DNA from: Gammaproteobacteria bacterium
GTDB lineage: Bacteria; Pseudomonadota; Gammaproteobacteria; S012-40
DNA length: 36,922 nucleotides
Reading direction: 5' to 3'
Assembly (NCBI GenBank): GCA_029884425.1
Contig: JAOUHV010000028.1
Coordinates: 1-36,922 of the forward strand
Below, in pieces: positions 4,633 through 29,055 of the stretch; the first letter of the stretch is position 1; each line of letters starts with the position of its first letter. The position numbers and the translations under genes were made by a program. Under the pieces are notes generated by a model. The model worked only from the letters and a program-made list of their open reading frames with translations, was not told the origin of the DNA and ran no database searches.

Positions 4633-6369
4633 ATGCTATTAGGTCAGCCGGTTATGAACAAGGTGGCGGCTTGTGTTGCTCTGCTGGCCTTGTTGGTATC
4701 GTCCGGGGCAGGAGCCCAACCTTGTATTAACGGTCTGGCATCCAAGGTTTTCGCGCCATCGTTTACGCTGGCATCGCACAGTGGATTGACGTTGGCGGCT
4801 GCAGTCAGTGAGTACGATGCAGGGGCTTTGTTGCTGGATCCGCAGGTGCTTGTGACCTGGAGCTATAATTCAGTCGGCGATAGCTCGGTACCTGTGGCCT
4901 GGAGTCTGGCCGGAACCCTGAGTTGGGCGTCATTGCCAGCGCTGAGTGCAACGCTGGGTGGCACAGCGACTGACATTGTTTTTTCGGACGTGAATGCCGA
5001 TGGCCGAGCGGATTTGCTGCTCACTGTTGGGCCGTATCTTTTTTACTACCAGGGATTTAGTGGTGGTCGTCTGGGGCGGATGCAGAACGGCAATATAGAA
5101 GTGGCTGTTCCGCAGCAAGTGATTACGGTGGCGACGACGGCCACGCCCAGCAGTTTTGTCTCCCGTCCAGCGATAATCACCCTGGCCGGTGGGCAGAAGG
5201 GCTTACTGGTGGCGCACAGTCAGGGGTTGACGCAGTGGACGTTCAGTGCTGGCGTGTTTTCCAGTCCGGCAGCGCTGATTACGGGTACGGCAGTAGAGGC
5301 GTTGGCCGTGCTGGACCTGAATGGTGACGGCAAGGAAGATGTCGCGCTGGTCAGTGGCGGTCAGCTGCAAACGCGTCTGAGCGATGTCAGTGGCGGATTT
5401 ACGGTGGCGGCCAGTGACACGCTGCTTGCTAATGCCGATTCACGTCAGGTGGCATTACAGACGGCGGACCTGGACGGTGATGGCCGCGTCGATTTGTTGC
5501 TGAACAGCAGCATCAGCCAGCGCTGGCTGGTGACGGCTAGCGGCCTGGGGGCAACGGATAATTTTACCTCGCCACACGGCGTGCTGTTGGCGGACGTGGA
5601 TTTTGATGGCGATCTGGATTTGTTACCCAAGCAGGGTTTGGCCAGTTGTGGTTCGGTGGCGGACGTATTGGACGGATGGCGCAATGATGGTCATGGCGGT
5701 TTTGTGCAAACGCCTGGCAATTATGCCGACGAAAGCATGTGGCGCTTGGCTGAACTAAATGGCGTACCGCCGCTGGAGGTGTTGAGTCAGAACGTAGCGG
5801 TGGGAACGTACACCAACACGCGCGACGTCGATACTTCGGTGACCCTGGGTGGTGTTACTTCAAAAAATAGCGGCGCACAGCTGCTCTACCAATTGCGATT
5901 GGGTCAGCAAGGGGCCAGTTTGGCGGGTGAAAGTTTGCAATTGACGCTGCGTTATCCGCAGGCTGCCTGGATAGAGCCGGATTCAGTGCAGCATGAAAAT
6001 TATCCACTGCTGAGCTGTCCATTGGTGACGCCGCCGGATTTGGCGGCCGGGATGCTGGCGCGGGAGTGCGCGGTGAACCCGTTAACGATCAATCAGCACG
6101 TGTCGCAAATTTTGCTCGACCGAGCGGCGATGGAGCAGCAGGTTGTGGATGTGCGGCTGAGTTTGCCGCAACAGGTGCTGGATATCGACGCCGCCAACAA
6201 TCGATTATTGCTGCGTCTAGGGGCGGATCAGACACCTCCCGTCAAAAAGCCAACGACCTTGCTTGGCAGTGAAGGGCCGTCTCTGATATTGTTAATGCTT
6301 GTGTTATATTGTCTACGCTATACCAATGATTTAAAAGAAATTGTGAAGCGAAAACTGTTGGATTGCTGA
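4633..6369 (+). CDS. Exported FG-GAP/VCBS-repeat protein with a C-terminal membrane anchor
   Basis: A 578-aa protein, or 571 aa from the ATG at 4654, which places a clean signal peptide at the N-terminus (MNKVAACVALLALL, then Ala-x-Ala before QP). At least four calcium-type DxDxDG repeats of the FG-GAP/VCBS kind are visible: DVNADGRADLLL (nt about 4987), DLNGDGKEDVAL (5321), DLDGDGRVDLLL (5467) and DVDFDGDLDLLP (5593). Such repeats build beta-propellers in secreted or surface proteins. The extreme C-terminus has a hydrophobic stretch (SLILLMLVLYCLRY) followed by basic residues, like a single membrane anchor. It starts three bases after tmcA, so it is probably co-transcribed, but no functional link is evident. 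Substrate or ligand is unknown. Confidence 0.7.
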   Translation: MLLGQPVMNKVAACVALLALLVSSGAGAQPCINGLASKVFAPSFTLASHSGLTLAAAVSEYDAGALLLDPQVLVTWSYNSVGDSSVPVAWSLAGTLSWASLPALSATLGGTATDIVFSDVNADGRADLLLTVGPYLFYYQGFSGGRLGRMQNGNIEVAVPQQVITVATTATPSSFVSRPAIITLAGGQKGLLVAHSQGLTQWTFSAGVFSSPAALITGTAVEALAVLDLNGDGKEDVALVSGGQLQTRLSDVSGGFTVAASDTLLANADSRQVALQTADLDGDGRVDLLLNSSISQRWLVTASGLGATDNFTSPHGVLLADVDFDGDLDLLPKQGLASCGSVADVLDGWRNDGHGGFVQTPGNYADESMWRLAELNGVPPLEVLSQNVAVGTYTNTRDVDTSVTLGGVTSKNSGAQLLYQLRLGQQGASLAGESLQLTLRYPQAAWIEPDSVQHENYPLLSCPLVTPPDLAAGMLARECAVNPLTINQHVSQILLDRAAMEQQVVDVRLSLPQQVLDIDAANNRLLLRLGADQTPPVKKPTTLLGSEGPSLILLMLVLYCLRYTNDLKEIVKRKLLDC

Positions 6370-6434
6370 AAGCCGCAAGTCAAAAGCGCTAACGAGTTCA
6401 CCTCATGGGTGAGTAGGGTAGTTTCAGGAGCGTC

Positions 6435-7163
6435 ATGCCAGTTCAGTCCTTGGTTGAATCCTTGGCGAGGAGCCGTAGTTTGCGTGATGTTCACGATGCG
6501 TGTACTCGCGCCTGTGAGAGTTGGGGCTTCAGTCATTTTCACTACAGTGGCTATGTCCGTGGCGTGCTAAACAAATCCCGTTTTGTATTCGTGAGTGATT
6601 ATCCCCAGGACTGGTGGGATCACTACAACGATAACGACTTCTATTTTTCCGACCCGCTGGTTCATTACTCCGCCTGCCATGTGACGCCGGTGTTATGGGA
6701 GCAATTTTTTAAGTGGGACGAGACACGCTTTGGCGGTAAGCGTGAGGTGCTGATTGCGGCAAAGGAGTTTGGGCTGCAGCACGGCGTAACCGCGCCGGTA
6801 CATTCACCGCATGGGAATCGAGGGTCGCTGAGCATGATTGCCAGCGATGCAGGGCCGCTGAGTCTGGGCGACGAGCGAGTGGCCAAAATTCAGCTGCTGG
6901 CGGCCTGTGTTCACGAAGCGGTGGGGCGGCTAACCCAGCGTGAAGAAAACGATAACTTGCTCGAAAGCATCAGTGGTCGTGAACAGGAGTGTTTGCTATG
7001 GGCGGCTGAGGGCAAAACCACCTGGGAAACCGCGCAAATTTTAAATATCTCGGAACGTACCGTACTTTTTCATATGCAAAACGCGATGAAAAAATTGGGT
7101 GCAGCCAATAAGTCTCATGCTGTGGCCAGAGCGATCTGTTATGGCATTATTTCTCCTTCCTAA
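6435..7163 (+). CDS. LuxR-family quorum-sensing transcription regulator (LuxR solo)
   Basis: A 242-aa protein with an N-terminal acyl-homoserine-lactone-binding domain (about 17-165) and a C-terminal LuxR helix-turn-helix (about 178-235). The ligand-pocket residues of the LuxR/TraR family are all present: W60, Y64, D73, P74, W88 and a Gly near 117. The DNA-binding domain is close to classical LuxR (SGREQECLLWAAEGKT, then SERTVLFHMQNAMKKL), with the invariant Glu, Leu and Gly. A ribosome binding site (CAGGAG) precedes the ATG. There is no luxI in the window, so this looks like a LuxR solo or one separated from its synthase. A lux box lies 60 bases downstream of the stop, before the next gene on the same strand. 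Confidence 0.88.
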   Translation: MPVQSLVESLARSRSLRDVHDACTRACESWGFSHFHYSGYVRGVLNKSRFVFVSDYPQDWWDHYNDNDFYFSDPLVHYSACHVTPVLWEQFFKWDETRFGGKREVLIAAKEFGLQHGVTAPVHSPHGNRGSLSMIASDAGPLSLGDERVAKIQLLAACVHEAVGRLTQREENDNLLESISGREQECLLWAAEGKTTWETAQILNISERTVLFHMQNAMKKLGAANKSHAVARAICYGIISPS

Positions 7164-7222
7164 CTGTCCGATTTCGCTTACGAATTGAACGGATAGAAAA
7201 TATTCTCACTAAAATTGTGCAA

Positions 7223-7242
7223 ACCTGTCAGTTCTTACAGGT
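7223..7242. promoter_or_regulatory. lux box, probable LuxR binding site
   Basis: ACCTGTCAGTTCTTACAGGT is a 20-bp inverted repeat. Its half sites ACCTGTCAGT and ACCTGTAAGA agree at eight of ten positions, and it closely matches the canonical ACCTGT-N8-ACAGGT lux box. A -10-like TACTGT lies at 7266-7271, 23 bases after the box; the classical lux layout has about 20. The adjacent LuxR-type regulator has a classical recognition helix. The predicted target is the 103-aa gene at 7383. Confidence 0.75.
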
Positions 7243-7382
7243 GTGCGCACCAACAAATTGCGGTCTACTGTACTTGTCGCCGCAGCGACGGGAATTTAGC
7301 GCTGCGCCATCGTTTTAATAGTCCAATTGCGTGCTTATTCGCATGATTGCGAGCCGGACCGCACAGAAACGAGAGTCAGGGC

Positions 7383-7694
7383 ATGACCATTTTATTCGTT
7401 GGAGCAGGCGAGGCGCAGTCAAAATTCCGTCAAGCGATGGAACGGGGTCAGGTGAACTCCGTGAGTGAACTGGCTCCCAATGAGTTTCGTACCCTCAGTC
7501 AGCAATATGATTGGCTGGTGATGGAAGTGAAGAGTTTAGGGGTCGGCAGGGACGCTGCCCCTTCTAATTTGTCCGAGTTGCCGATGATGGCATGCTGTGA
7601 CACCAAAGTTCGGCGGAACAGCACGATTGCCGGTTTGCAGTTTGAGTACGAGCGCGCGGAAATTATCAGTTATCACCAGCCGCGCCAAAAGTAG
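7383..7694 (+). CDS. Small protein of unknown function, predicted quorum-controlled
   Basis: A 103-aa protein that I do not recognise. It opens with a beta-strand-like TILFVGAGEA, then a helix (SKFRQAMERGQ), a short LAPNEFRTLSQQ helix and a hydrophobic YDWLVMEVKSLG strand. The order resembles the first half of a receiver-type fold, with Glu where a receiver would have its phospho-acceptor Asp and with the acidic pair after strand 1 missing. That comparison is speculative. No signal peptide or TM segment is seen. It lies 140 bases downstream of a lux box, behind a LuxR gene on the same strand, and ends before a terminator. Start ATG 7383 is preferred over an in-frame TTG at 7347; GAGAG (7371-7375) is the likely ribosome binding site. 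Confidence 0.6.
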   Translation: MTILFVGAGEAQSKFRQAMERGQVNSVSELAPNEFRTLSQQYDWLVMEVKSLGVGRDAAPSNLSELPMMACCDTKVRRNSTIAGLQFEYERAEIISYHQPRQK

Positions 7695-7768
7695 CGAATC
7701 GCTGGTCCAGGGACGGATCAGTTTTTTAGTGCCAGATGATGGATGACGTAGAAATTCAGCGATAAACA

Positions 7769-7793
7769 AAAAGCCCCGCATTGCGGGGCTTTT
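7769..7793. terminator. Bidirectional intrinsic terminator
   Basis: AAAA, GCCCCGC (7773-7779), ATT, GCGGGGC (7783-7789), TTTT. A runs on one side and T runs on the other let it work in both directions, for the 103-aa gene (plus) and for hemE (minus), whose stop is at 7800. Confidence 0.85.
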
Positions 7794-7799
7794 GTATTT

Positions 7800-8864
7800 T
7801 TACTTGTGGTACTGGCGGCTGAGTTCGTGAACCGCGTTGACGAACGCGCCAGCGTGCTCAGGCTCTACATGCTGATGGATGCCGTGGCCCAAGTTGAACA
7901 CGTGACCTGTGCCGTTGCCAAAGCCTGCCAGGATGGTGGCCACTTCCTCACGGATGCGCTCAGGTGAGGCATACAGGGTGGATGGGTCCATGTTGCCCTG
8001 CAGCGCAACCTTGTCGCCGACGCGACGGCGGGCGTCGCCGATGTCGGTGGTCCAGTCCAGACCCAGTGCGTCACAGCCGGTTTCAGCCATGGCTTCCAGC
8101 CACTGTCCGCCACCTTTGGTGAACAGAATCACTGGCACTTTGCGACCATCTTTCTGGCGAATCAGACCATCCACGATCTGCTGCATGTAGCGCAGCGAAA
8201 ACTCGCGGTAGTCACGTGGCGTCAGCACGCCACCCCAGGTATCAAAAATCTGTACAGCCTGAGCACCGGCTTCGATCTGGGCGTTCAGGTAGCTGGTGAC
8301 CGACTGGGCAGTGGTATCCAGCAGTTTGTGCATCAGGTCGGGGCGATCGAACATCATGCCTTTGACCTTGGCGTAGTCTTTGGTGCCACCGCCTTCAACC
8401 ATGTACACGCCCAGGGTCCAGGGGCTGCCGGAGAAACCGATCAGGGGCACGCGACCGTTCAGCTCGCGACGAATGGTGCGAACCGCGTCCATGACGTACT
8501 TCAGTTCGCCTTCGGGATCGGGCACGAACAGCTTTTTTACATCGGCTTCGGTGCGAACGGGCTTGTCAAACGCAGGGCCTTCGCCGGCCTCAAAGCGCAG
8601 ACCCAGACCCATGGCATCAGGAATGGTCAGGATGTCGGAGAACAGGATGGCTGCGTCCAGCGGATAACGATCCAATGGCTGGATGGTCACTTCGCAGGCC
8701 AGCTCGGGGTTTTTGCACAGGTCCATGAAGCTGCCTGCTTTGGTGCGCGTGGTGCGGTATTCGGGCAGGTAGCGACCGGCCTGACGCATCATCCACACTG
8801 GCGTGTAGTCGACAGGCTCTTTACACAGGGCGCGTAGGAAACGATCGTTCTTTAATTCAGTCAT
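7800..8864 (-). CDS. hemE: Uroporphyrinogen decarboxylase
   Basis: A 354-aa enzyme that decarboxylates the four acetate side chains of uroporphyrinogen III to give coproporphyrinogen III in haem synthesis, in the cytoplasm. The N-terminal signature [16 protein letters not shown] (about residues 21-36) is intact. [14 protein letters not shown] and a late GLDWTTD and NLGHGI motif follow in the usual order. Length matches the family. It lies downstream of gltBD on the same strand with a 109-base gap, so it may be read from that operon or from its own promoter in the gap, which I could not identify. It ends at a strong terminator. Confidence 0.97.
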
Positions 8865-27812: not shown

Positions 27813-27846
27813 AAAAAGCCGCTCCGGAGTGGGGCGGCTTTTTTTT
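27813..27846 (+). terminator. Intrinsic terminator after the 75-aa gene
   Basis: AAGCCGCTCC (27816-27825), GGAGT, GGGGCGGCTT (27831-27840) with one G-U pair, followed by a run of T to 27846. Confidence 0.88.
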
Positions 27847-27966
27847 GTCTCCGATTTGCCATGGCGGGCTTACACACTTTTACATTGTCGCTATCAACCC
27901 CTACCGGAAATGTGCGCTAAAAAGGTAGATGAGTGGCCTGAGAATCGGAAACGGGTAGAGGGAAGT

Positions 27967-29055
27967 ATGCACATGTGGAAATGGCCATCGGCGGCGGAAC
28001 AGGTGAGTTACCGCGCGTTGATTGTGGATGATTCGCAATCGCAGCGGATGCTGCAGCGAACCATTCTACAGGGCCTGGGGTTTGAGGTGGCTGAGGCAGT
28101 GGATGGGGCTGAGGCGCTACGCCAGATTGCAGAACACGATTTTGATGTGATTCTGATGGACAAAAACATGCCGGTTATGGATGGCGATCAGGCTTGTCGC
28201 GAAATACGGCAGACGCTGGGCAATGTGCTGGTGCCGATTTGTATGGTGACCGCCTCCAGTGATGATGCTGAGCTGGAACGTAGTTTGAAGGCGGGCGCGA
28301 CGGATTTTATTCGCAAACCATTTAGCGAAACAGAGTATGCGGCGCGCGTGGTTCGTGCCGCACAGAGTAAACGTGTTACAGATCAATTGGACAGTGCTGA
28401 AGCGTTTATGTTTGCACTGGCGCGTATGGTTGAGGCGAAAGACGTAAATACCGGTGATCATTGCTCCAGATTGCAACATTTGTCACGGGTGTTTGGTGCC
28501 AGGCTGGGTTTGTCGGAATCTGAATTGCAAACCTTATGGCGTGGCGGTGTGTTGCATGATCTTGGCAAGTTGGGAATCCCCGATGCCATTTTGCTCAAGC
28601 GGGGGCCGCTGACGGCAGAGGAATGGGTGGTAATGAAAACTCATCCGCAGATAGGTGCCAACTTGTGTGCCAGTTTGAGCAGTATGCGGGCTACGGTACC
28701 CATTATTCTTTATCACCATGAGGCTTGGAATGGCAGTGGTTATCCGCATGGCTTGCAGGGCGAGGCAATACCTTATTTGGCGCGGGTGTTCCAAATTATC
28801 GATATCTATGATGCCTTGTCGAATGCGCGTCCCTACAAGCCGGCGATGTCAAATGACGAAGTGGTGCAGGTGTTAACAGATGAAATGAATCGTGGTTTGC
28901 GTGATCCGCAACTGACCACGGCTTTTATTGAATTGGTGCGCGAAGCACCACAAAGTTTGATTGTACCTAAAAGACAAGAAAAATATTTGGACGAACAAAT
29001 TTTTGAACAGATTATGAGTGCAAGGGTGCAAGTGACTGGCCGGTCAACGGCTTAG
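27967..29055 (+). CDS. Response regulator with HD-GYP c-di-GMP phosphodiesterase domain
   Basis: A 362-aa protein with an N-terminal receiver domain (about 16-135) carrying VDDSQSQR and the phospho-acceptor Asp in ILMDKNMPVMDG (near residue 64), followed by an HD-GYP domain. The catalytic HD sits in LHDLGKLGIPD (near 195), and the GYP loop reads HHEAWNGSGYP (near 251), so hydrolysis of c-di-GMP is expected. No sensor kinase is adjacent. Start ATG 27967 is chosen for GAGGGAAG upstream; the longer frame to 27829 would begin inside the terminator. The next gene is a lone receiver 17 bases downstream, probably co-transcribed. Confidence 0.9.
   Translation: MHMWKWPSAAEQVSYRALIVDDSQSQRMLQRTILQGLGFEVAEAVDGAEALRQIAEHDFDVILMDKNMPVMDGDQACREIRQTLGNVLVPICMVTASSDDAELERSLKAGATDFIRKPFSETEYAARVVRAAQSKRVTDQLDSAEAFMFALARMVEAKDVNTGDHCSRLQHLSRVFGARLGLSESELQTLWRGGVLHDLGKLGIPDAILLKRGPLTAEEWVVMKTHPQIGANLCASLSSMRATVPIILYHHEAWNGSGYPHGLQGEAIPYLARVFQIIDIYDALSNARPYKPAMSNDEVVQVLTDEMNRGLRDPQLTTAFIELVREAPQSLIVPKRQEKYLDEQIFEQIMSARVQVTGRSTA

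Follow-up and report, generated by a model that had tools for sequence, protein, structure and literature searches.

A small locus in the window, the 36,922-nucleotide stretch of DNA analysed in this work, is very probably a luxR-luxI-X cassette that has lost its luxI, and in which an AHL-listening LuxR solo would drive one obvious target, a putative signalling adaptor referred to here as X (Table 1). In the simplest history, luxI would have been lost between its promoter and X, and LuxR would have been kept together with the LuxR-dependent luxI promoter (lux box and -10 element), which would now have X as its only gene ahead of a terminator. At the level of sequence, this history is shown by the gene order in relatives, by the retained luxI-type promoter, by the missing luxI, and by membership of the small protein in the X family at low but significant similarity. 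LuxR solos are common, and their targets are usually not known. At this locus, the DNA appears to record how a complete quorum-sensing operon became a solo, and a single obvious target is in view.

Table 1. Features of the luxR-X locus and its surroundings (positions in the window)
Feature	Position	Strand	Remarks
luxR	6435..7163	+	242 aa; AHL-type LuxR regulator, solo in the source genome; PF03472 6e-31, PF00196 3e-18
lux box ACCTGTCAGTTCTTACAGGT	7223..7242	.	no other perfect site genome-wide; agrees with the boxes preceding luxI in 29 related loci
-10 element TCTACT, putative former luxI promoter	7264..7269	+	21 nt after the lux box
Leader, putative deletion junction	7270..7382	+	expected luxI start region from box-to-start distances in relatives; no luxI remnant with the luxI HMM
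X, putative luxI-linked pseudo-receiver	7383..7694	+	103 aa; ATG at 7383; possible TTG start at 7347
Terminator-like stem-loop with T-run	7701..7722	+	just 3' of X; suggestive only
Strong bidirectional terminator	7769..7793	.	11-bp stem; between X and hemE

The LuxR solo, its promoter and the missing luxI

Both domains of the window LuxR, Autoind_bind and GerE, were matched well above their cut-offs, and a residue alignment with QscR (3szt) revealed that the AHL-pocket and DNA-binding invariants are kept (W57, Y61, D70, P71, W85, G113, E178, L182 and G188 in TraR numbering, read by eye through QscR and not directly against TraR). The nearest LuxR to this protein, with 43% identity, is that of G003, a genome of the same family, where the gene heads a luxR-luxI-X locus. 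Furthermore, the two proteins are sisters in the LuxR tree (support 100/92, with a long branch leading to the window LuxR), which agrees with a history of luxI loss.

The two 6-nt arms of the 20-bp lux box are perfect, and the pattern ACCTGT-N8-ACAGGT occurs with zero mismatches only once in the 2.9-Mb source genome. Sites with one mismatch number three, all of them inside ORFs, and among the sites checked in this genome we found no second good intergenic lux box that would indicate a wider LuxR regulon. In 29 related loci, the luxR-luxI interval contains a lux box; in 25 of these the best -10 hexamer is found 21-22 nt past the box, and TCTACT itself recurs at this spacing in L049, L051, L053 and L099. 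In many relatives, 57-64 nt separate the box from the luxI start. The window has nothing luxI-like at that place, and X starts 140 nt after the box. We read the lux box as an element of the former luxI promoter, since X appears to be the third gene of a luxR-luxI-X cassette from which luxI has been lost. Downstream of X, the stem-loop at 7701-7722 has limited weight because the stem-loop search returned 4 structures against 1.9 expected in shuffles; the minus-strand gene hemE has its end at 7800, and no Rfam match was obtained in the region 6300-7900.

No LuxI (PF00765) was detected in the source genome, a 2.9-Mb draft that is 98% complete, even at E<=1, and three genomes of the same family (G003, G004 and G010), used as positive controls, were matched at about 1e-33 in the same search. 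The source genome thus lacks the AHL synthase gene of a complete LuxI/LuxR pair. The window sequence contains no N, and no luxI remnant was detectable with a luxI HMM, for which the best E-value in any frame was 0.77. The possibility that the 103-aa ORF is itself a degraded LuxI was rejected after this HMM found nothing in X or in the gap. The loss of luxI from this locus is well supported; with luxI gone, the promoter leads straight to X, and because luxI is absent, LuxR would respond only to AHLs from elsewhere. The window LuxR is most likely an AHL-listening solo made by luxI loss.

An initial annotation of this DNA had described an AHL-type LuxR solo with the classical pocket residues, a near-perfect lux box, no luxI, and behind the box a small ORF on the same strand that was put forward as a candidate for LuxR control. 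The domain matches and QscR alignment, the unique zero-mismatch site and the genome-wide scan agree with this description, and the small ORF exists with codon usage like that of coding DNA. Its control by LuxR is likely. What had been missed is that this lux-box target would be the third gene of a widespread cassette from which luxI was lost.

It has been previously reported that LuxR solos can arise by loss of luxI, SdiA being one example (PMC4338825). Such solos have in common with the window an AHL-type LuxR, a genome without LuxI, and relatives that carry luxI at the same place. In contrast to SdiA-type solos, the window still shows what appear to be the orphaned luxI promoter and the gene once located behind luxI; because both remain recognisable, the sequence itself shows what the solo would control.

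The luxR-luxI-X cassette in relatives and a proposed role of X

When the LuxR DNA-binding domain was searched for in 85,000 species genomes, 80 loci were obtained and then annotated; a contig scan with AHL-domain patterns found no relatives. The order luxR-luxI-X was seen in 30 loci, G003 included, from gamma-, beta- and deltaproteobacteria, with hosts that comprise Nitrotoga, other Gallionellaceae, Nitrosomonadaceae, Thiogranum, Thiohalobacter, Arhodomonas, Natronospiraceae, other Gammaproteobacteria and two Desulfuromonadales. X proteins of these cassettes have about 105-165 aa, and the start of the gene usually overlaps the luxI stop (gap -4); in G003, a 107-aa X follows 9 bp after luxI. 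Apart from the window, each full-length X in an even sample of the class (369 genomes) directly followed luxI, or a decayed luxI in the case of G091. Homologues away from luxR or lux boxes, which the initial annotation had named as evidence against a quorum-controlled gene, did not appear, as all full-length homologues found lie at luxR/luxI (the lux box of G003 being degenerate). None of 36 other luxI-less luxR loci tested had kept X, and no case other than the window was seen in which luxR, lux box and X remain with luxI gone. Of nine loci tested for the gene that follows X, seven encode a GGDEF-EAL protein there, and the remaining two a histidine kinase and a response regulator. Compared with the cassettes of Nitrotoga, Nitrosomonadaceae, Thiogranum, Thiohalobacter and others, the window has the same LuxR type, the same promoter layout and an X behind the promoter, but it is without luxI, its X is shorter, and the GGDEF-EAL gene downstream of X is absent.

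Several loci depart from the common arrangement. In G251 (L170:2283-3290), the gene directly behind the normal luxI encodes a 335-aa in-frame fusion of a second, diverged LuxI with an X domain. In G091 (L181:1450-1899), the initial portion of luxI continues in frame into the second half of X across an internal deletion; the luxR ahead is also truncated, and the cassette is decaying. Behind luxI in G347 (L173:1090-1317) lies a 75-aa Cys-rich ORF in which only the C-terminus is X-like (YVLEYHMPC), followed by a histidine-kinase-like gene, from which the C-terminal motif of X may be a separate functional unit. Three Nitrococcus loci (L075, L096 and L099) have an X region broken by stops after luxI, and they keep the C-terminal peptide of X (e.g. 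WLFEYHAPERKRF), which either overlaps the next gene or immediately precedes it. Nitrosospira and Nitrosovibrio (L060, L064-L066, L069, L070 and others) carry a conserved LuxR solo with no luxI nearby, adjoining an exonuclease-III-like gene on the other strand; these solos nest in the tree near the Nitrotoga LuxRs that bear luxI-X, and they perhaps represent another loss of luxI in which X was lost as well. The Desulfuromonadales cassettes (L048 and L051) place luxR-luxI-X in Thermodesulfobacteriota, which suggests horizontal transfer between phyla. Finally, two loci of the window's own family (L006:1150-2254 and L007:1137-2205) have a LuxR-type gene beside a Cys-rich small gene of 103-123 aa and a glutathione-transferase-like gene.

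In relatives, AHL-bound LuxR would switch on luxI and X together. The source cell would make no AHL of its own of the cassette type and would listen to the AHLs of others, and AHL-bound LuxR would bind the box and turn on X. X would then most likely be a protein-protein adaptor or modulator that passes the quorum state to another signalling protein. A role as adaptor between quorum sensing and another signalling pathway is suggested by the facts that X is co-encoded with LuxI, is fused to it in one case, and is commonly followed by a gene for a GGDEF-EAL protein, a histidine kinase or a response regulator. In addition, the retention of X after the loss of luxI suggests that X does more than help in AHL synthesis. 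We put forward more tentatively, as a proposal that may well not hold in full, that X constitutes a new family of luxI-linked pseudo-receivers that, in gamma-, beta- and deltaproteobacteria alike, links AHL quorum sensing with c-di-GMP or two-component signalling, and that serves here as the dedicated output of an eavesdropping LuxR through an orphaned luxI promoter. If X does couple AHL sensing to c-di-GMP proteins, it would provide a new and testable link between the two. The X loci include those of nitrite and sulfur oxidisers, about whose quorum sensing little is understood.

Genes cotranscribed with luxI homologues have been reported to modulate quorum sensing, namely BCAM1871 (254 aa) and CinS (67 aa) (PMC3356288). 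Like X, they lie directly behind an AHL synthase gene, and they affect quorum-sensing output; the pairs cepI-BCAM1871 and cinI-cinS (PMC3356288) are therefore a precedent for X as an anti-activator or enhancer whose target is LuxR or LuxI itself, with which the tight linkage of X to luxI and the single LuxI fusion are also consistent. We regard this as unlikely, if still worth weighing, because X persists in the window without LuxI, and because a receiver-like fold with GGDEF-EAL neighbours fits a signalling adaptor at least as well. Compared with X by their published descriptions, CinS and BCAM1871 differ from it in size, BCAM1871 weakly resembles HMG-CoA reductase, and no family named for RsaM/AbaM, CinS or BCAM1871 came up in the Pfam and NCBIfam scans.

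A further parallel to X is orf3 in the afeI-orf3-afeR locus of Acidithiobacillus ferrooxidans, a conserved luxI-linked gene whose function is not known (PMC3759942, PMC7984328). Like X, orf3 is a conserved gene tied to luxI, but it lies between afeI and the divergent afeR; it could be related to X, to which we liken it by gene position and description only. The LuxI/LuxR system of Nitrotoga has been published, and X is not mentioned in the available part of that paper (PMC6050957). A literature search, with subscription papers outside its scope, found no paper that joins pseudo-receivers with luxI. The X family is undescribed: it is not named in any curated library searched, yet it stands behind luxI in at least 30 loci.

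Likely membership of the window protein in the X family

The length of the 103-aa ORF is by itself not significant (P ~0.26 in simulated DNA), so codon usage was taken instead, and this was found to be in-frame, coding-like and comparable with that of luxR. BLASTP of the G003 X against the window X gave no match, and because this pairwise search was empty a family profile was needed. An HMM of the family, built without the window protein and scored against about 2,000 targets, gave the window protein an E-value of 0.003 when the G003 X was included and of 0.11 when it was not, so that the significance depends partly on G003. The window X scored above all 1000 shuffles with the family HMM, and the corresponding p is of the order of 1e-5 to 1e-6 for a single test. 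Receiver proteins elsewhere in the window also match the X profile. The N-termini of the two proteins are alike (M-T-I-L-F-V-G in the window, M-K-I-L-F-V-G in G003), and the hydrophobic-x-(F/Y)-x-Y-x-x-P motif near the end of X proteins is present in the window X, whose C-terminus EIISYHQPRQK (SYHQP) fits the family motif FEYHAPC with p ~0.016. The middle motif C-G-V-E...L-x-C is eroded, and the protein is shorter than most of the family (103 aa vs mostly 125-151). It does not lie directly behind a luxI and adjoins a luxI-type promoter instead; since the missing luxI is the proposed loss itself, we claim its membership as likely and not as certain. By position, two motifs and profile, the window protein is likely a remote member of the X family.

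Single-sequence searches, of P0002 in 56 relatives and of P0003 in the 369 class genomes, returned only self or one match at E 0.009, and a search of P0003 in plasmids gave no match. Hundreds of profile matches in the 369 genomes were rejected as X, as they cover model positions 1-90 only and look like ordinary receiver domains; the profile used there contained the window protein, whose own match of 2e-11 is circular and was not used.

The shorter length and the eroded central Cys motif are also what would be expected if the promoter and the ORF were decaying leftovers, with luxI lost and X on its way to a pseudogene without present function, and G091 and Nitrococcus do carry decayed versions of the same cassette. 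We consider such decay improbable, given an open frame with coding-like codon usage, an intact promoter, its lux box perfect in both arms and its -10 present, a terminator-like hairpin after the stop, and the preservation of both the N- and C-terminal motifs of X. It is still harder to maintain that the ORF is an unrelated gene driven by the lux box, X-like by chance or through shared receiver-likeness. Although the BLASTP comparison with G003 was empty, receiver proteins of the window match the X profile too, and simulated DNA often holds ORFs of such length, the ORF is the last gene behind a luxI-type promoter and behind a LuxR whose nearest relative heads luxR-luxI-X, and the HMM p-value, the fit of the C-terminal motif and the similar start M-x-I-L-F-V-G all speak for kinship with X.

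The predicted receiver-like fold of X

No NCBIfam model matched any of 32 X members, and the Pfam scan of the same proteins gave one sub-threshold flavodoxin match only and no PF00072. When the profile of the family was compared with the PDB, 43 sequences were matched over the first 80-90 positions, nearly all of them receiver domains (best RpfC, 6e-6). The AF2 model of the window X predicts a beta-alpha-beta-alpha-beta arrangement with a pLDDT of 66, in blocks near 80 for residues 1-50 and low later. Foldseek matched this model to receivers with E-values no better than 5e-3, and VIA to receivers with Z up to 8.6 and to the CikA pseudo-receiver with 8.2, where a Z of about 8 can also arise from common arrangements; for a Nitrotoga X model, Foldseek returned receivers mixed with other alpha/beta folds. 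E49 of the window X aligns with the phospho-Asp of receivers, a position occupied across the 32 members by D (20), E (5), Q (3), N (2), H (1) and P (1). The acidic pair of receivers, at the end of strand 1, is absent from the X family, and the window X has G-A-G there. With this pair always missing and the phospho-Asp site variable, X is classed as a putative pseudo-receiver, and phosphorylation is not regarded as a conserved trait.

From profile and models, we conclude that the N-terminal half of X is probably homologous to receiver domains and that X is a probable pseudo-receiver with a conserved, predicted C-terminal F-E-Y-x-A-P strand. This half resembles receivers and pseudo-receivers (PF00072; CikA, 5jyu) in its predicted fold and, remotely, in sequence, whereas X differs from them in its missing acidic pair, its variable phospho-Asp position and its C-terminal part with F-E-Y-x-A-P. 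The initial annotation had proposed a receiver-like first half with Glu in place of the phospho-Asp, and this is supported by the PDB profile, the structural matches and the alignment of E49. Its further suggestion, that Glu49 makes X a constitutively "on" receiver, is very hard to sustain, since for all that E49 aligns with the phospho-Asp and a D10A/D53E PhoB mutant (constitutively active according to its PDB title) was among the structural matches, residues as different as D, E, N, Q, H and P occupy that position in the family, the acidic pair is never conserved, and none of the 32 members has a Pfam receiver match.

Elsewhere in the window, at 27829-29055, we noted a receiver protein with, by eye, an HD-GYP-like output; its receiver matches the X profile at 6e-4, and the protein is possibly a c-di-GMP phosphodiesterase.
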